A DNA stretch of 46,206 bases from Spirulina subsalsa CS-330 (GTDB taxonomy: Bacteria > Cyanobacteriota > Cyanobacteriia > Cyanobacteriales > Spirulinaceae). Positions 3,701-38,254 of this stretch are shown one piece after another. The number at the start of each line of letters is the position of its first letter. Position 1 is the first letter of the stretch. The notes beneath the pieces were generated by a model. That model was not told the origin of the DNA, ran no database searches, and worked only from the letters and a program-made list of their open reading frames with translations. Both the position numbers and the translations under genes were made by a program. Where the stretch lies: contig NZ_JAQMTY010000166.1 of assembly GCF_028330765.1 (NCBI RefSeq), positions 1-46,206 on the forward strand, written 5' to 3'.

Positions 3701-3862
3701 TTAGTTGCAGAGACAGGATTTACAGTTTTCACCGTTTTCATCGCAACATTGGCAATAGGGTGCAGAGGCGAGGCTAGAATCGGGACATAAAGCCGTATTA
3801 TTTAAGCCAATTGTAGAGACCATTACAATTAAATAACCGAATAGTTTGAATTGCGTGAACAT
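3701..3862 (-). CDS. small exported Cys-rich peptide
   Basis: A 53-residue ORF from ATG 3862, with a weak AGGG ahead of it; the frame stays open for 32 more codons upstream, but that part has no hydrophobic signal. Residues 1-28 resemble a signal peptide (FKLFGYLIVMVSTIG). The mature part of about 25 residues holds seven Cys, most in YCQCCDENGENCKSCLCN at the very C-terminus. Dense Cys pairs suggest metal binding or a disulfide knot. I do not recognise a family. It is convergent with the TPP-enzyme gene and lies 114 bp after the WD40 gene on the same strand, so the two may be co-transcribed. It could be a chance ORF, but the Cys pattern argues for selection. Confidence 0.5.
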   Translation of the reverse strand: MFTQFKLFGYLIVMVSTIGLNNTALCPDSSLASAPYCQCCDENGENCKSCLCN

Positions 3863-3976
3863 ACAGATACCCTGACTTGAAAAGATTTCTTTCAAGATAT
3901 CCCATGGTGGATTCTTGGGGATGAGGGGTGAGGTCTTCCATGGGTATGAGGTAGACACCTCAAAGCCTTGCTAAAA

Positions 3977-31466: not shown

Positions 31467-31510
31467 GAGATTCAACAGTTCAAAAGTTAGAGTTGTCCGG
31501 AGATAGCACC

Positions 31511-32605
31511 ATGGCAGAAGCCTATTTACTTGATAAATTAAAATCGGTTGAGCAGACCTTTCAAGAGCTTTCCCTACGTTTGGCTGACCCCGATGTGGTG
31601 ACAAATCCGGATGAACTGCAACGGGTGGCGAAGGCGCGGGCATCGCTAGAAGAGACCGTAATCGCCTATGAAGCGTGGCAAAAAGCCACCCAAGAATTGA
31701 AAGGAGCGCGGGAGATTTTAAAAGAGTCTCAGGGGGATCTGGAAATGCAGGAAATGGCGCAGCTTGAGGTGCGGGAACTGGAAGAGCAGATCGCCACCTT
31801 AGAAAATCAACTCAAAGTGTTACTCCTGCCCAGTGACCCGAATGATGAGAAAAACATCATGCTGGAAATTCGGGCGGGGACTGGGGGCGATGAAGCCAGT
31901 ATTTGGGCGGGGGATTTGTTGCGGATGTATTCGCGCTATGCCGATACCCAGGGCTGGAAAGTGGCGCTGGTGAGTGAATCGATCGCGGAAATGGGGGGAT
32001 TTAAAGAAGCGGTTTTGGAAATTCAAGGGGTGCGGGTCTATAGCCAGTTGAAGTTTGAGGCGGGGGTGCATCGGGTGCAGCGCGTGCCGGTGACGGAAGC
32101 GGGGGGGCGAGTGCATACCTCGACGGCAACGGTGGCGGTGATGCCGGAGGTGGATGAGGTGGAGGTGGCGATTGATCCGAAGGATTTGGATATTTCGACA
32201 GCTCGATCGGGCGGGGCTGGGGGCCAAAATGTGAATAAGGTGGAGACGGCGGTGGACTTAATCCATAAGCCGACGGGGATTCGGGTGTTTTGTACGGAGG
32301 AGCGATCGCAACTCCAGAACCGCGAACGGGCGCTGCAAATTTTGCGGGCAAAACTGTACGAAATGAAGTTACGCGAACAGCAGGAGGCGGTGACTTCTTT
32401 GCGGCGATCGCAGGTGGGGACGGGGGCGCGATCGGAAAAAATCCGCACCTACAACTACAAAGACAATCGCATCACCGATCACCGTCTCGGCCACAATTTC
32501 AGCCTCGCCAATGCCCTCGATGGTGACATTGATTTAATCATCCAAGCCTGCATTTCCCAAGATCAACAGGAACGCCTGGAACAGTTGGCCAGTGCAACGG
32601 AGTGA
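31511..32605 (+). CDS. prfA: peptide chain release factor 1
   Basis: 364 residues from ATG 31511 (an in-frame TTG lies 18 bp upstream but is not homologous). RF1 terminates translation at UAA and UAG. The codon-reading tripeptide is Pro193-Val194-Thr195 in [10 protein letters not shown], and the catalytic GGQ is 237-239 in [14 protein letters not shown]. The C-terminal helical part [20 protein letters not shown] is complete, so the gene is functional. Pieces of a second, diverged copy of its 3' end occur at 35009-35065 and 36328-36457. Confidence 0.97.
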
Positions 32606-32935
32606 GGGAGGATTCACGACCCCAGTTATACGCCAGGAATTGTCTTCAGACGTTGCGGCCATCCATGCCGTAACGGTCCCTGCGTTCCTCAATGCACCGC
32701 ACACAGCGCACACGGAACAGTTCATTTTGTCCCATCGTCACCCTGTGGGGTGGTGACGTTCCACGCGGCATTCAGTGCGCGGGCCTAACTTCAGGTTGTG
32801 GCCTGGCCCTGTACGGGGGGCGATCGAGTTGGGCAGTTGAGGCACTTCCAGAACAGGACTTACGCTAAAATACGACTGACCCGAACCGTTATGCTGCTCA
32901 ATCATTTTGCGTTTTACTGGAGGGCTTGACAAATC
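32606..32935 (-). other. 330-bp spacer, possibly a decayed TnpB 3' end
   Basis: Inverted repeats at 32651-32675 (CGTTGCGGC / GCCGTAACG, one wobble) and around GTCACC...GGTGAC near 32737-32760. On the minus strand short open pieces with Cys pairs (MNCSVCAVCGALRNAG) are interrupted by stops, and the flank ends in a GTCGTGAATCC-like sequence that recalls the right ends of IS200/IS605-type elements. This is weak; it could be plain spacer. The final 70 bp should hold the promoter of the next gene. Confidence 0.25.
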
Positions 32936-33283
32936 ATGAGTGATTCTAATCAAACATTTGACCTCACTACAAAAGAAGGGCGTGAAAATGCGCTTGCCGT
33001 TGTCCTGATGGTAAGTCCTGTGTCAGCAGCAGTTTGGCTTGGAAAAACCTTATTTGACGGTATTGCCACTCTTACATCAGCTGCTAACGAAAAAGAGATG
33101 GAAGAACAAAGAAAAGTGGCGATCGACATCATTAAAGCAGGAAAAGAAAATGGTGCTGATGAAATAGAGATTACAATGTCTCAAAAAGCTGGTATTGGTC
33201 TAGGCTCAGATTTTGACGGTGTTCCAATTGAGTTTATTGCGGTTGCTTCGGGTACAATGAAGCTAAAGGTAAAATATAAGTAG
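32936..33283 (+). CDS. unknown small protein, first gene of the accessory island
   Basis: 115 residues from ATG 32936, with GGAGGG about 13 nt upstream. Residues 19-47 contain a moderately hydrophobic segment (NALAVVLMVSPVSAAVWLGK), then a Glu/Lys-rich helix (NEKEMEEQRKVAIDIIKAGK), then a beta-like C-terminus ending VASGTMKLKVKYK. I recognise no family. The second half recalls small immunity or effector-associated proteins only in size. Codons are AT-richer than in neighbours, suggesting transfer. It ends 13 bp before the core-like heptamer GTTAGAT at 33296. Confidence 0.55.
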   Translation: MSDSNQTFDLTTKEGRENALAVVLMVSPVSAAVWLGKTLFDGIATLTSAANEKEMEEQRKVAIDIIKAGKENGADEIEITMSQKAGIGLGSDFDGVPIEFIAVASGTMKLKVKYK

Positions 33284-33295
33284 GCGATCGCTTGC

Positions 33296-33302
33296 GTTAG
33301 AT
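33296..33302 (+). other. attC/attI R'-like core heptamer (weak)
   Basis: GTTAGAT matches the integron core GTTRRRY and lies 28 bp ahead of the first TA module, exactly where a cassette boundary would be. No matching RYYYAAC box is seen upstream, so on its own this is no more than a degenerate motif. Confidence 0.2.
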
Positions 33303-33329
33303 TGATATAACTACAGAAGCTTTGCAGAT

Positions 33330-33632
33330 ATGGTAGACCATTCTAGCTCACCTCCAACCTCTCTTGAATTGCTGCTTCATGAAATCGAAGCAACGCCTAG
33401 AGAATATTGGGCAGATTTGCTGGATGCTTTACGCCAGTTCCGACAGAAAATTCCATCAACTGCTCCACCTGTTATTGATGCAGAGCAAGCCCGAAAAAAT
33501 CAAGCAGCGATCGATCTTCTAGATTCATGGCTGGGTGAGACTGAGGATGCATCGGAACATCAGCAAGCTTGGGACTTTTTAAAAACGGCTCTAGATGAAG
33601 ATCGATTGTCCGATCGCCCTTTATTCCCATGA
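33330..33632 (+). CDS. antitoxin of PIN module 1 (putative)
   Basis: 100 residues from ATG 33330. Acidic, helical: SLELLLHEIEATPREYWADL, then AAIDLLDSWLGETEDASEHQ and a C-terminal FLKTALDEDRLSDRPLFP. No DNA-binding fold is evident by eye; the call rests on the 4-bp overlap with the PIN-domain gene and on similar small genes preceding PIN toxins in cyanobacteria. The C-terminal acidic tail would fit toxin neutralisation. Confidence 0.6.
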   Translation: MVDHSSSPPTSLELLLHEIEATPREYWADLLDALRQFRQKIPSTAPPVIDAEQARKNQAAIDLLDSWLGETEDASEHQQAWDFLKTALDEDRLSDRPLFP

Positions 33633-34081
33633 GTCGTCTGATTTTGCTGGATTCTGGACCACTGGGAATGGTCACGAATCCAAAAGCCGCAGGCATTCCC
33701 CTTGATTGTCAGCTATGGCTAAAATCCCTCTTACGACGTGGAGAAAGGGTGGCCATTCCCGAAATTTCAGATTATGAAGTTCGCCGTGAACTCCTCCGAG
33801 CAGGATTGCTGAGAAGTTTGCGGCGGCTGGACGACTTGAAACAAACGCTCGACTACATTCCCATTCAAACCGATACCATGCTTCTGGCAGCTGAATTGTG
33901 GGCAGAAGCGAGGAAAACCGGACAACCTACCGCAGATGCTAAAGCGTTAGATGGGGATGTAATTCTGTCTGCTCAAGCCCGTCTTCTCGGAAGTGAGGTG
34001 GCAGAAGTGATTGTTGCAACAACGAATGTTGCTCATCTTGCTCGGTTTATTACAGCGTCGGATTGGCAATCTATTGGATAA
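33629..34081 (+). CDS. PIN-domain ribonuclease toxin (module 1)
   Basis: 150 residues; the ATG overlaps the antitoxin stop (ATGA). PIN-domain acids are readable: Asp8 in LLDSGPLGMV, Glu50 in ISDYEVRREL, and Asp108/Asp110 in LDGDVILSAQA, with the closing VATTNVAHLARF strand. Members of this group cleave RNA. The stop is 21 bp before the attC-like site, which is the usual place of an integron cassette gene. Chromosomal stabilisation of the array would be its natural role. Confidence 0.8.
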   Translation: MSRLILLDSGPLGMVTNPKAAGIPLDCQLWLKSLLRRGERVAIPEISDYEVRRELLRAGLLRSLRRLDDLKQTLDYIPIQTDTMLLAAELWAEARKTGQPTADAKALDGDVILSAQARLLGSEVAEVIVATTNVAHLARFITASDWQSIG

Positions 34082-34102
34082 ACTTGTTGGTGAGCGATCG
34101 CA

Positions 34103-34190
34103 GCATAACAATCCGCCTGCACCCGACCGTTTCGAGTCTTCTCGTTGAGTTTGAGAGGTTACTAGCGGCGGGTGAGGCGGAACGTTAGGC
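34103..34190 (+). other. attC: integron attC-like recombination site
   Basis: R'' is GCATAAC (34103-34109) and R' is GTTAGGC (34184-34190), one mismatch apart when paired. Inside, L'' TCCGCCTGCACCCGACCG (34112-34129) pairs with L' CGGCGGGTGAGGCGGA (34166-34181) over 16 bp; L'' has exactly two unpaired extra bases, G119 and A126 (34119, 34126). Extrahelical bases confined to L'' are the hallmark by which the integrase chooses the strand. The order R''-L''-loop-L'-R', the 88-bp size and the place between two gene modules all fit attC. R'' deviates at one base from RYYYAAC. Confidence 0.65.
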
Positions 34191-34227
34191 ATTCAATCTA
34201 CTTACCAGTTGTTTAAAGGCAGAATCA

Positions 34228-34272
34228 TTGACAACTGATGTAGGATTGCTTAGTATGACAGCGCAATCCTAC
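34228..34272 (+). promoter_or_regulatory. promoter and operator of TA module 2
   Basis: TTGACA (34228-34233), 17 nt, TAGTAT (34251-34256). A perfect 10-bp inverted repeat GTAGGATTGC (34240-34249) / GCAATCCTAC (34263-34272) brackets the -10 box, as expected for autorepression by the ribbon-helix-helix antitoxin or the toxin-antitoxin complex. The cassette thus carries its own promoter. Confidence 0.7.
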
Positions 34273-34298
34273 TAGACTGTCGTGGGCAGCTTACAGGC

Positions 34299-34523
34299 AT
34301 GAGTAAGAAAGTCAGTATAACCTTGGATGACGAAGTTCTAGAGTTTGTAGATCGGCTAGCAAGCAATCGTAGCAGCTTTATCAATGATGTCCTCCGGCGA
34401 GAGAAGAGAAGGATTTTCATGAAAGAGCTAGAAGATGCTTATAAAGATCAAGCTAATGACCCGGAGTTCCAGGAAGAAATCTCTGTTTGGGATGTTGCAG
34501 TGGGCGATGGTTTAAATGCCTAA
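34299..34523 (+). CDS. ribbon-helix-helix antitoxin (module 2)
   Basis: 74 residues from ATG 34299. KKVSITLDDEVLEFVDRLAS followed by NRSSFINDVLRREKR is the ribbon-helix-helix (CopG/MazE-like) pattern: a DNA-binding N-terminus and an acidic C-terminus (DPEFQEEISVWDVAVGDG) that should bind the toxin. It overlaps the toxin gene by 8 bp and is preceded by a clear operator. Confidence 0.85.
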   Translation: MSKKVSITLDDEVLEFVDRLASNRSSFINDVLRREKRRIFMKELEDAYKDQANDPEFQEEISVWDVAVGDGLNA

Positions 34524-34890
34524 CGGAAACTTAACCTACCAGCGAGGAGAGATATGGTGGGTTGAGCTGAAACCTGTGATTGGTCATGAAACCAATAAAG
34601 AACGCCCTTGTCTAATTTTGCAAAATGATATCGGCAACCAAAATGGGGCAACAACAATCGTTGCTCCCTTGCTGCCTGGAACAAAGACTTATCCGTTCGT
34701 GGTGAATATTACACCAACTACGCAGAATGGACTCGATAGAGATCGGCACATCAACTTAAGTCAAATGAGGGCTGTAGATGCTCAGAGAATTAAGCATAAA
34801 CAGGGTATTTTGGAAGAAGTTTATTGGGAAGAAATTGAGAAAGCAGTATGTATTGAGCTTGGTTTCAGTTTAGCGTTCAAATCCTCGTAG
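34516..34890 (+). CDS. mazF: MazF/PemK-type endoribonuclease toxin (module 2)
   Basis: 124 residues from ATG 34516. YQRGEIWWVELKPVIGHETN, then RPCLILQND, NGATTIVAPLL and NLSQMRAVDAQRI are the MazF SH3-like barrel motifs; Arg30 and Thr46/47 are the likely active-site residues. MazF toxins cleave mRNA at short sequences and arrest growth. The stop is followed 4 bp later by GCCTAAC, a core-like box, consistent with a cassette whose attC has been lost. Confidence 0.88.
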   Translation: MPNGNLTYQRGEIWWVELKPVIGHETNKERPCLILQNDIGNQNGATTIVAPLLPGTKTYPFVVNITPTTQNGLDRDRHINLSQMRAVDAQRIKHKQGILEEVYWEEIEKAVCIELGFSLAFKSS

Positions 34891-34893
34891 CTT

Positions 34894-34903
34894 GCCTAAC
34901 AAT
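34894..34903 (+). other. orphan attC R''-like half-site after mazF
   Basis: GCCTAAC (34894-34900) is exactly complementary to the R' box of the attC-like site and is followed by AAT, as R'' is there. No L'' arm or R' partner follows. If real, the rest of this attC was lost when the prfA fragment was joined. Confidence 0.3.
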
Positions 34904-34921
34904 GTGATTTTTTTGGAGACA

Positions 34922-35074
34922 ATGCCTACTTTTCAACAACATTGGCAGGATCAGGGAAGTCTACCCACTTTCCAGGAGCGCGATCGCGCTATGCTCAAGC
35001 GGGAACTACAGGAGGCGGTGATGTCGTTGCGGCGATCGCAGGTGGGCACGGGGGCGCGATCGGAATTGTTTTGA
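34922..35074 (+). pseudogene. chimeric ORF carrying prfA fragment A
   Basis: A 50-residue frame from ATG 34922 whose N-terminal half (MPTFQQHWQDQGSLPTFQE) is unrelated to RF1, while [19 protein letters not shown] is RF1 residues in the same frame. The homologous stretch 35009-35065 matches prfA 32381-32437 at 53 of 57 bases (my count). The stop comes 3 codons later. A recombination scar rather than a gene. Confidence 0.75.
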
Positions 35075-35075
35075 A

Positions 35076-35100
35076 TATAATCTAGACTATCTGGACTAGA
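35076..35100 (+). promoter_or_regulatory. -10 box and palindromic operator of TA module 3
   Basis: TATAAT (35076-35081) overlaps an imperfect palindrome TCTAGAC-TATCTG-GACTAGA (35081-35100), 9 bp ahead of the antitoxin ATG. No good -35 is seen. Autoregulation is the likely purpose. Confidence 0.45.
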
Positions 35101-35109
35101 GAGCTGTCT

Positions 35110-35340
35110 ATGTTACTGCAAAACCTCAAGGAAGCAGCGGTCAAGTTATCACCGAGCGATCGACTTGCGTTGGTCAGTGCCATCATTGATTCGTTGCAGA
35201 ATACCCCAAGTCCAAAGCCTGATCGTTCTGGTGCAATTCGACGGATGCGCGGCTTACTCAAAACAGACCAGCCTGCACCCACTAACCCAGAAGTAGCTGC
35301 GATGCTAGAAGAGCGTCGGGTGGAAAAATACCTTCAGTGA
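35110..35340 (+). CDS. antitoxin of truncated PIN module 3
   Basis: 76 residues from ATG 35110. LKEAAVKLSPSDRLALVSAIIDSL is typical of short cyanobacterial antitoxins paired with PIN toxins; AIRRMRGLLK and EVAAMLEERRVEKYLQ follow. No clear DNA-binding fold by eye. It overlaps the next frame by 4 bp (GTGA). It may still be made although its toxin is broken. Confidence 0.65.
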   Translation: MLLQNLKEAAVKLSPSDRLALVSAIIDSLQNTPSPKPDRSGAIRRMRGLLKTDQPAPTNPEVAAMLEERRVEKYLQ

Positions 35341-35603
35341 GAGTTTTAATCGATACCAATATTCTCCTAGATTTTCTATTGCAAAGAGAGCCATTTTGCC
35401 ACGATGCAGAACGACTGTTCCAGGCGATCGATTCGGGTCAGATCGTTGGATATGCCACAGCTACAACACTCACAGATATTTTTTACATAGATTTTCACCG
35501 ATTTCCTCACAGTTCAAACAACAAAGAGGTCACTTATGCAAAACTCTCGTCATGTTTCCTTACTAACAAATGGACAAGATCAAGTCCTAACTATTCCCCA
35601 TGA
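35337..35603 (+). pseudogene. truncated PIN-domain toxin (module 3)
   Basis: GTG start at 35337. MRVLIDTNILLDFLLQREPF and the following YATATTLTDIFYI are a good PIN N-terminus (Asp6, Asp12). After about residue 51 the homology stops: DFHRFPHSSNNKEVTY is unlike PIN and the frame then runs out of phase into the next antitoxin gene. The C-terminal acids are missing, so it should be inactive. The break near 35490 is probably a deletion that joined this module to module 4. Confidence 0.75.
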
Positions 35604-35775
35604 ACTTGCCCTATCAGGTACAGAAGTTTTGTTACGCAAAGAAGGTCATCGCTTAATCATTGAACTCATTCCTGCTCATTCTCTCCTTTCTTTGCTAACG
35701 ACGTTGCCAGACATTACGGATGATTTTCCTAATCTAGATGAGGGGTTACTTCCCCTTGATGACATCACACTTTAG
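35536..35775 (+). CDS. VapB-like antitoxin (module 4)
   Basis: 79 residues from ATG 35536, with AGAGG about 6 nt ahead. HVSLLTNGQDQVLTIPHELA has the AbrB/MazE swapped-hairpin look (x-V-x-L-x-x-x-G-x-x-Q-x-L-x-I-P), and the acidic C-terminus (DITDDFPNLDEGLLPLDD) would bind VapC. It is followed 9 bp later by vapC. Confidence 0.8.
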   Translation: MQNSRHVSLLTNGQDQVLTIPHELALSGTEVLLRKEGHRLIIELIPAHSLLSLLTTLPDITDDFPNLDEGLLPLDDITL

Positions 35776-35784
35776 TACCACCCA

Positions 35785-36189
35785 ATGCCCTATCAATACC
35801 TCCTTGATACAAATATCCTGTCAGATTTGATCAGACATCCTCAAGGTCGGATTTTCCACCATATTGTCGATGTCGGGGAAGATAGCATTTGTACTAGCAT
35901 CATTGTGGCGTGTGAACTACGATTTGGAGTAGTTAAGAGTGGTTCCTCCCGTCTGGTACAGCAACTAGAACGCATCCTTGAAGTTTTGATAGTTTTGCCG
36001 TTGGAATCACCTGTAGATGAGCAATATGCCTCAATTCGTACAAATTTGGAGCAAGCAGGAACCCCAATTGGTCCAAATGATTTACTGATTGCTGCTCATG
36101 CCCTAGCTCTTGATCTGACTCTTATTACAGCAAATATCCGTGAATTTGAGCGTGTGCCTGCCTTGAAATTAGATAATTGGTTGCTTTGA
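35785..36189 (+). CDS. vapC: VapC-type PIN ribonuclease toxin (module 4)
   Basis: 134 residues from ATG 35785. Classic VapC: YLLDTNILSDLIRHP with Asp8, ICTSIIVACELRFGV with Glu44, GPNDLLIAAHALA with Asp99, and TANIREFERV at the end. Complete, probably active; VapC toxins cut tRNA or rRNA. Forms the only intact pair in the right half of the island. Confidence 0.92.
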   Translation: MPYQYLLDTNILSDLIRHPQGRIFHHIVDVGEDSICTSIIVACELRFGVVKSGSSRLVQQLERILEVLIVLPLESPVDEQYASIRTNLEQAGTPIGPNDLLIAAHALALDLTLITANIREFERVPALKLDNWLL

Positions 36190-36327
36190 AAATACAAGAT
36201 TTGGCATAAGATGTCTTTGGTTCAAGCGAAGAGAACAGTCGGAAGCGGCGCAGGCTAACTTCACCGTTAAATCCTATCAAGGTGGGGATGTGCTGTTTTG
36301 GTAGCAATGACTAAGTTGCTTGGGCGG
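36190..36327. other. spacer between vapC and prfA fragment B
   Basis: 138 bp, no gene. GGCTAAC and GTTAAAT near 36256-36276 resemble integron core boxes but are only 6 nt apart and one breaks the consensus, so I do not call an attC. Confidence 0.4.
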
Positions 36328-36457
36328 GCGATCGCAACTGCAAAACCGCGAACGGGCGCTGCAAATTTTGCGGGCAAAACGGTACGAAATGAAGTTACGC
36401 GAGCAGCAGGAACGCCTCGAACAACTGGCCAGCACCTCTGGCGATGACATCAACTAA
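36328..36457 (+). pseudogene. prfA fragment B, internally deleted RF1 3' end
   Basis: 36328-36411 matches prfA 32302-32385 with four differences (my count), then jumps to the equivalent of 32571, so 186 bp (62 codons) are missing in frame. The jump lies between the near-identical repeats CAGCAGGA and CAACAGGA. The frame then continues RLEQLASTSGDDIN and a stop, while the intact gene ends [10 protein letters not shown]. It therefore comes from a different prfA allele. No start codon in frame; non-functional. Confidence 0.85.
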
Positions 36458-36525: not shown

Positions 36526-37335
36526 TCAGTTGACCTGAGCGCCAGACCAGAGGGGTTGCTGGGTTTGACCGTAGACGGTGGGTTGATCCCCGGCGGCTAG
36601 TTTGGTTTCGGCTTCGGTCACACTCCAGAGCAGCCACGGGTCATCCCCTAGCACCCCAGCCCGGAATAAGACGGCATGGGGATTGAGATGACTCCACCCC
36701 AACAACACCGCGTTGGAATAGTCAATGCCACGGGGGGATAGGGTGGTGGTGCGTTGGCTGTCGCGTTCCCAAATGACAGCGTAGTCCGAAGCAATGGAGG
36801 TACTGAGGAGGCCTTCAAATTGACGGGCGAGGAGGCGATCGCCCGACTCTGACCACGACACCGGGATGAGGAGCGAGGCCACCCCCGATGGCCCTGTGCC
36901 GGTCGCATCATGGCCATCGGGGTCAATGGCGAGGGGGGACGAGGCGGTGATGGTTTGTAATTCTCCCGTTTTGACCGTTTCGAGAAACATGACGCTGCTG
37001 ATCGTGCTCCGGAAGAAGCGATCGTCGATGCTCATTTGAATGCGGCTGTAGGTGATATACGCACCATCCGGGGAGACAATGGCGGGGCTGCGATAGTAGC
37101 GGATGTCCGCATGGGACAGTTGGCGCAGTTCCGCATGGGTGTTGAGAATCCAAGTCCAGGGGATCGGGTAGGGACTATTGAGGGGATCACTATTGGCATC
37201 GGGGGTGAATACCGTGCCCGGTTCCCCCCGTGTCAGGGAGGATGGAGTTGAGTCTACCGTCGTGGCTGAGGTGGGGATGGAGAGGAAAAGCGTGGGCTGA
37301 GGATAGCACCAGGCGGGGGGTAAGACGGCTTTCAC
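36526..37335 (-). CDS. conserved-looking hypothetical protein, possible beta-propeller
   Basis: About 269 residues if GTG 37335 is used (TTG 37341 is the other choice; no ribosome binding site decides). Contains YYRSPAIVSPDGAYITYSRI, SWSESGDRLLARQFEG and AVIWERDSQRTT, the (S)PDG-x-x-I/L-x-Y rhythm of PD40/TolB-type propeller blades. A weak hydrophobic N-terminus might be a signal. I do not recognise a named family. It begins just outside the accessory island and its codon use is like the core genes. Confidence 0.6.
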   Translation of the reverse strand: MKAVLPPAWCYPQPTLFLSIPTSATTVDSTPSSLTRGEPGTVFTPDANSDPLNSPYPIPWTWILNTHAELRQLSHADIRYYRSPAIVSPDGAYITYSRIQMSIDDRFFRSTISSVMFLETVKTGELQTITASSPLAIDPDGHDATGTGPSGVASLLIPVSWSESGDRLLARQFEGLLSTSIASDYAVIWERDSQRTTTLSPRGIDYSNAVLLGWSHLNPHAVLFRAGVLGDDPWLLWSVTEAETKLAAGDQPTVYGQTQQPLWSGAQVN

Positions 37336-37450
37336 TGTCAAGATAGGGGTACAGGAGAATTAAGACATGGGGTGATCATAGGTCTGCGTGGATTCAAAAG
37401 TCAAAGGAGAGACGGTGTAGGATGGAATCTGGACTCTTTCGGCTCAAACT

Positions 37451-38254
37451 TTGGATGTGATACAGCCTACGGATCAGAGCAAGAATCGTCACGACTATTT
37501 ACCCACTCAACCCCCGGCGCGTTCATGGCCGGGTTGGCTTTGGGATGGCACATTGCGCTTAATTTTGCTGGGGTTTGGTAGTACGTTGGCGATGGCGTTG
37601 GGGGTGGCGATCGCCCTCAACCGTGAACCCAATGTCCCCGCGTCTCAACCGTTCCTCGCTCAACTGTGGGACGCGATCCAACGCCCCGCTCCCGTTGCCT
37701 CCAGCCAAACCACGGCGCTGTCCCAACCCCTCAGCACCGAAATTGAGCGAGTTGATGCGCAATGGCAACAACTGCGCGATCGCATCACCATTCTCGAAAG
37801 TCAATTGGGACTCTCCCCCACAGAATCACCCTTGCGCGATCGCATCGCCCAGTTGCAGGAAACCGTCCAAGCCCAGGCCACCCCCCCCTTATCCCAAACC
37901 GCCAACCTTCCCGGCCAACGCCTCCAAATCACCCTCCCCAATGACCTCCTTTTTAACGAGGCCAATACGATTTCCGATTCCGGAACCACCATTTTGGATG
38001 CGATCGTCGGCGACCTCAGCGCCTACAGCGGCCAAACGATCCGGATTGCCGTCCATACCAATCACCACAGCGACCCCACCCGCAATCGTGAACTGTCCTA
38101 TCAACTGGCGCAAACCGTGGAAACCTACCTCAAACAAGAGGTATCCGCCCGTTGGGTCGCCATTGGCTACGGCGATCGCTACCCCATCACCCCCGACCCC
38201 AGCAGCGATCGCGAAGCCCAACAAAACCGCCGTCTTGAAATCGCCATCGATTAG
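37451..38254 (+). CDS. OmpA/MotB-domain membrane-anchored protein
   Basis: 267 residues if TTG 37451 is used; GTG 37457 is as likely. One membrane segment, about residues 34-56 ([20 protein letters not shown]), a coiled-coil-like stretch ([20 protein letters not shown]), then a C-terminal domain with [35 protein letters not shown] and [14 protein letters not shown], the peptidoglycan-binding OmpA pattern. The usual OmpA Asp/Arg ligands are partly recognisable (final NRRLEI). It probably bridges the inner membrane and cell wall. It lies 17 bp before fmt. Confidence 0.75.

Follow-up and report, generated by a model that had tools for sequence, protein, structure and literature searches.

A probable attC site and the remnant of an integron platform behind prfA in the cyanobacterium Spirulina subsalsa CS-330

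Introduction

Cyanobacterial integrons are already published: the literature reports intI genes in Cyanobacteria (PMC2426708), integrons in the phylum (PMC8618304, PMC9668308), a cyanobacterial attC model (PMC8352920) and surveys that assign attC sites to these bacteria (PMC9176274, PMC10963911). Two other described states are close to the locus presented here. By the default rule of IntegronFinder 2.0 (PMC9024848), a CALIN comprises two or more attC sites and lacks intI. In Xanthomonas, integrons lie at ilvD, and intI is reported to have been lost in some species, with CALINs present (PMC12444791).

The locus of Spirulina subsalsa CS-330 is a further case of this known system. It resembles cyanobacterial sedentary chromosomal integrons in that the IntI of relatives is of the TIGR02249 type, that the array of a genome of another genus (G012) is divergent from intI, and that the attC sites possess R boxes and extra bases, but it differs from them in keeping 48 bp of intI and in having its platform behind prfA. 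As in the Xanthomonas ilvD integrons, the platform occupies one place behind a housekeeping gene, intI has been lost and attC clusters have been kept, whereas the phylum is different and intI-attI pieces occur here at several places per genome. This recurrence of intI-attI region pieces in the relatives is the less usual feature. Among the literature matches listed, as titles and abstract openings, none concerned a prfA-linked integron platform.

Methods

The window is the whole stretch of 46,206 nucleotides analysed (NZ_JAQMTY010000166.1, positions 1-46,206; assembly GCF_028330765.1). Candidate attC sites were sought with our own scanner of core boxes and paired arms, the first settings of which missed the second site of the own genome as well as many array sites and were then relaxed. 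Two covariance models were built. R1 was derived from 41 attC candidates adjoining intI genes of non-cyanobacterial bacteria: a filter reduced 64 candidates to 43, from which L037:7295-7381 and L081:9055-9127 were removed, the former because it is cyanobacterial and R1 was to stay independent. R2 was derived from eight cyanobacterial attC sites, none from the own genome and one from G003, a genome of the same genus. The E-values of both models are rough. In the R2 genome searches 150 candidates were scored per genome, and G003 and G012, which contain training sites, were among the genomes searched.

The set of 74 sites (alignment A5) includes the eight training sites of R2; both boxes were readable in 64 of them, which served for the same-site count, and 68 entered the upstream mirror-box test. 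For the mirror-rule tests the G003 site was taken as 3820-3906, the limits of the model being 3821-3905.

Results

The probable attC site

An attC site is an imperfect hairpin with extrahelical bases on its L'' side, and its core boxes follow the consensus RYYYAAC ... GTTRRRY. The boxes GCATAAC and GTTAGGC, and a G and an A six bases apart, lie exactly where the original prediction had placed them (Table 1), and the stop codon of the PIN-like ORF does end 21 bp ahead of the site. GCATAAC departs from the consensus at one base (the third) and GTTAGGC at none. The two extra bases and the fold of the bottom strand give the site the imperfect hairpin with extrahelical bases of an attC, and in the aligned attC sites (A3, A4) extra bases stand in the same columns, as judged by eye. 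Folded as DNA, the bottom strand reaches -21.8 kcal/mol (z -4.52), a value that none of 200 shuffles equalled. The aligned attC sites are about 86-88 nt long. The loop of the cyanobacterial sites (A3, A4) is partly alike across genera, being AGGTTATCTGC or near it; the loops of attC sites of different cassettes usually differ.

Table 1. Features of the prfA locus in the window.
Feature	Position	Strand	Basis and remarks
prfA (peptide chain release factor 1), host gene	31493..32605	+	ORF; name from sequence and conservation
GNAT-like acetyltransferase remnant, middle deleted	32606..32788	+	matches the G003 gene, 32606-32726 at 94%, 32726-32788 at 95%; name by eye
intI 5' end remnant and upstream bases; start codon altered, remainder gone	32829..32876	-	similarity to G001 intI
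GTTATGC junction, start of cassette 1 (G|TTATGC)	32888..32894	+	sole + strand GTTATGC in the window; reverse complement of R'' at 34103
Cassette 1: 115-aa ORF, 100-aa ORF, PIN-like ORF, attC	32889..34184	+	inferred from junction and attC core box
PIN-like toxin ORF, 150 aa	33629..34081	+	Pfam PIN in aligned homologues
attC site: R'' 34103-34109, extra bases 34119 (G) and 34126 (A), arms, loop, R' 34184-34190	34103..34190	+	R1, R2, fold
Cassette 2, mazEF, starts TTAGGC; own attC cut off right after R''	34185..34900	+	GCCTAAC mirrors GTTAGGC
mazE antitoxin	34299..34523	+	NF050104, 113.1 bits (cut-off 65)
mazF toxin	34516..34890	+	PF02452, 101.6 bits (cut-off 23.1)
R'' box GCCTAAC of shortened second attC	34894..34900	+	sequence; three bases past mazF stop
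Dispersed-repeat piece	34902..34998	+	94% to G012 repeat
prfA fragment (35000-35065) and further TA pieces	35000..36189	+	ORFs, profiles, DNA similarity
Antitoxin-like ORF	35110-35340	+	within 35000..36189
PIN ORF, ends early	35337-35603	+	within 35000..36189
VapB-like	35536-35775	+	within 35000..36189
VapC-like	35785-36189	+	within 35000..36189
Repeat pieces with possible R' box GTTAAAT (by eye), then rearranged native prfA 3' end copy (36328-36456)	36265..36456	+	DNA similarity
Right flank; follows prfA after 20 bp in G002	36528..37500		96.9% to G002 over 973 bp

The covariance test suggested with the original prediction was carried out with R1 and R2 instead of the model of IntegronFinder. 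With filters off, R1 listed 15 matches in the window, and the site headed them at 27.0 bits (E 3.5e-4), the second having 11.4 bits; with default filters R1 did not list 34103-34190. R2 gave it 61.4 bits (E 1.9e-13 over the whole genome). It is thus recognized by R1 (filters off) and by R2, each a model of structure and sequence built from other attC sites. A search of the window against Rfam returned no match at the gathering score. The scanner scored the site at 29, which no + strand among 300 dinucleotide shuffles of the whole window reached, a single one reaching 26; at the loose threshold of 16 it found 3 matches in the window versus 2.4 in block shuffles, which is no discrimination. By these features of sequence and fold, the site is very probably a genuine attC.

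That it should instead be an ordinary palindrome, a terminator or a REP-like repeat with a likeness to attC due to chance or descent, is scarcely credible. A palindrome would suit a site that stands between two gene sets and folds well, and the loose scan gives as many look-alikes in shuffles, but the R1 and R2 scores, the failure of all 300 shuffles to attain the scanner score, and the mirrored ends and covariation described below speak against it. So does the behaviour of R2, which had no match at E<=0.5 in five of 20 genomes (150 candidates scored in each) and therefore does not ring everywhere.

Mirrored cassette ends, covariation and a two-copy cassette

The first bases of a cassette (TTRRRY) mirror the R'' of its own attC, and the R' of an inserted site is that of the next cassette. 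Both cassettes of the window follow this rule: GTTATGC at 32888 mirrors GCATAAC at 34103, and GTTAGGC at 34184 mirrors GCCTAAC at 34894. The mismatch between R'' and R' within the site and the departure of GCATAAC from the consensus are explained by the first pair, since R'' mirrors the cassette start GTTATGC. A GTTAGAT at 33297 was weighed as what might be left of an attC that once separated the 115-aa ORF from the TA pair, and was dismissed by eye as chance, because R'' at 34103 mirrors 32888 instead.

Consecutive attC pairs of the fetched arrays behave in the same way. In 12 of 33 pairs, the upstream R' carries four variable bases that mirror those of the next R'' (shuffled mean 2.87; a count reached by none of 20000 shuffles). 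Within single sites, by comparison, the two boxes mirror each other in 3 of 64. Of 68 sites, 31 have a mirror box 100-2500 bases upstream (shuffled mean 11.2; a count reached by none of 5000 shuffles). These shuffles treat related sites as independent, and the exact rule is absent in 21 of the 33 pairs and 37 of the 68 sites. The exceptions possibly reflect missed sites between distant neighbours, or mutation. In the 74 sites, 87.9% of cells pair versus 72.2% in shuffles, slid structures drop to 27-47%, and 196 cells are altered on both sides versus 67 shuffled; these pair counts are favoured by the fitting of A5 to the structure of the model. Pairs with a double change show a modest excess only (15 versus 12.1 shuffled; 8 of 500 shuffles as high).

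A cassette of about 140 bp with no ORF occurs on both C236 and C124, with 136 of 144 positions identical. The similarity runs from G|TTGTAC to CG|TTA, so that on the right it extends three bases beyond the crossover. One copy comes after an attC, and the other after a stretch like the region upstream of intI in G002, the sister genome. Two copies of one cassette, both bounded by the crossover point, further strain the reading as an ordinary palindrome.

Genes of the locus

The host gene prfA is kept in all 14 family genomes, and the GNAT-like gene that follows it is open in G003 (L133:1270-1800). In cassette 1, the 100-aa ORF is antitoxin-like by position only. The designation of its neighbour as a PIN toxin is weakly supported: the protein itself scores 19.8 bits with Pfam PIN, below the cut-off of 23.6, but five of eight aligned proteins, including that of the window, match the family (best 3.1e-5). 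Pfam at E 0.001 returned nothing for this ORF, and a solved-structure search yielded a single match (E 0.29), which was irrelevant. Homologues of the PIN-like gene were matched in 49 of 120 genomes, and 19 loci with such homologues (flanks of about 1.5 kb) contained no R2 attC match.

Positions 34902-36456 hold no recognisable cassettes, and R2 found no attC among the TA pieces at 35000-36189. The island also carries repeated pieces of the 3' half of prfA, at 35000-35065 and 36328-36456, the last of which resembles the G002-type end. A dispersed repeat of about 270 bp is represented by pieces at 34902-34998 and 36265-36343; it follows attC sites in G012 and in G003, genomes with 7 and 4 matches to it, and has 4 matches in the own genome.

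Integrase remnants and open genes

The genome-wide search proposed with the original prediction was borne out for attC, with at least 11 matches, and not for intI: the TIGR02249 profile found no intI over the cut-off in the own genome, only two N-terminal fragments (C226, 71.5 bits; C290, 29.7 bits). The profile gives below-cut-off matches in 14 of 14 control genomes, so that weak matches alone mean little; at the DNA level, the C226 and C290 fragments are 79% identical over 227 bases and 81% over 142 to the intI of G001, a genome of the same genus. Among 40 genomes (own included), TIGR02249 matches exceed the cut-off in five, and two of the five have an in-frame stop. As the genome has no intI over the cut-off, no claim of activity can be made.

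G001 has an open intI immediately behind prfA, the two genes being convergent. The remnant in the window is identical to the start of this gene (L030:2086-2133) at 42 of 48 positions (E 2e-13 pairwise) and was recovered again in the family search (E 9.6e-9). A complete integron, with intI beside attI and attC, is not what the locus holds, as 48 bp of intI remain. The remnant also bears on whether IntI acting in trans could have put a lone cassette into a non-integron site (attG), with prfA as a chance landing place. Insertion at attG sites is already published, and lone attC matches are dispersed over contigs of the own genome and of relatives, but a chance landing fits poorly with an intI remnant that ends 12 bp before the start of cassette 1 and with an open intI at the same locus in G001, which makes this origin very unlikely.

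Two palindromes between intI and the first cassette are common to L030:1965-2110, L133:1907-2023, L001:835-970 and L002:251-400, their kinds being TTAGACCGCA...TGCGGTCTAA and GGTGTTATCCCGCACGTGCGGGATAACACC. They may represent attI or a site of regulation; the shared palindrome part was not matched by the junction of the window.

Empty site and shared pieces in relatives

An empty-site relative, which the original prediction had named as support, was found in G002, where the match to prfA (31479-32595) is at 92.3%, the flank resumes at 36528, and 20 bp stand in place of the 3.9 kb of the window. At 36328-36456 the island holds the native prfA end in a second, displaced copy, which would favour insertion in the lineage of the window over loss from G002. 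The G003 locus contains prfA, the GNAT-like gene, an intI remnant, palindromes, a 440-aa ORF (acyltransferase-like by eye) and an attC, with the junction GTTATCT and R'' AGATAAC.

The mazEF segment (34227-34998) is 95.2% identical to G003 and 94.7% to G012, where it comes after an attC and the common repeat. The G012 mazEF locus also has a prfA 3' piece, 92.6% identical to G003, and the prfA of G012 itself lies elsewhere. Of the 14 family genomes (own included), 6 contain pieces of the intI-start/attI region, with a maximum of four places in any one genome; some of these matches are palindromes only, and one, in G001, is the open intI itself. In stretch L178 of G012 (C2:3174500-3187000), modules of the island stand within about 7 kb: three intI-attI region pieces, four attC matches, the foreign prfA 3' piece, and mazEF and VapBC pieces.

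Other attC matches

The at least 11 R2 attC matches of the own genome lie on 7 contigs; they comprise at least 8 at E<=0.5, from 150 scored out of 246 candidates, and three from fetched stretches, C236:4422-4482, C226:9-80 and L183:1404-1474, the last on C124 at 23.3 bits. C70 and C260 were weak R1 matches; with R2, C70:5394-5482 rose to 42.7 bits and C260 had none at E<=10.

The original prediction had spoken of gene cassettes or a CALIN. The cassettes stand, and the window is not a CALIN: it has one whole and one cut attC, together with an intI remnant. The CALIN rule is matched instead by C236, in which four R2 matches on one strand lie between ORFs within 4 kb with no intI match; this contig ends inside the array, so that, from the contig alone, an intI past its end is possible. 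Further attC-like sites near 2066 and 4048 of C236 fit the mirror rule by eye; R2 scored C236:4017-4066 at 14.3 bits (E 0.31), and the site near 2066 is absent from its list.

At E<=0.5, and with 150 candidates scored in each, 15 of the 20 genomes (the own genome among them) had R2 matches, amounting to at least 130 candidate attC sites of which the weakest are uncertain; R1 had matches in 12 of 20. At least 17 R2 matches at this threshold are dispersed singly or in pairs over the chromosome of the one-contig genome G020, and G010 has at least 37; neither has an intI over the cut-off.

Discussion

Most probably the site is the attC of a cassette belonging to a sedentary chromosomal integron, one that formerly stood behind prfA and is now a decayed remnant. 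The original reading as integron gene cassettes gains support from the model scores, the other attC matches of the genome, the intI remnant, the open intI of G001 and the empty site of G002. The site, its mirrored ends, the intI remnant, the empty site and the further attC matches can all be read in the DNA itself. What stands here is the remainder of the integron platform, with shortened intI, junction and cassettes, and more than a loose cassette.

The recombination mechanism is drawn by analogy with integrons at large. IntI would bind the folded bottom strand of attC, with the extra bases setting the choice of strand, and would insert a cassette at attI, the join falling between G and TT. 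Such insertion would have brought in the 115-aa ORF with the PIN-like TA pair (cassette 1) and mazEF (cassette 2). We infer that decay followed, in which most of intI was lost beside the GNAT-like gene and the second attC was cut. The locus would now be a fixed remnant whose attC could move only with IntI from outside, and the TA pairs may help to hold it in place.

More tentatively, and in our view less likely than not, the integron of this cyanobacterial family might spread and decay as a modular unit of shortened intI, attI, cassette, attC and common repeat. Such modules occur at several places per genome, and in G012, another genus, a prfA piece is still attached. If this were so, the platform itself would be mobile between genera, and cassettes would outlast their own integrase and rely on the intI genes of relatives. 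The related genomes present an empty site, an open platform, a remnant and orphan cassettes, and so make integron decay readable in a cyanobacterium. The candidate attC sites counted above make movement in trans, and the spread of TA and other cassettes in cyanobacteria, testable.

Two further observations concern individual loci. On C124 (L183:1404-3778, minus strand), restriction and cytosine-methyltransferase genes (by eye) are flanked by two attC matches and stand behind an attI-like stretch of the G002 type, with no intI match there. The open IntI of G002 (L027) has R where two aligned relatives have H in LGHKDV, an H that we take to be a catalytic position.
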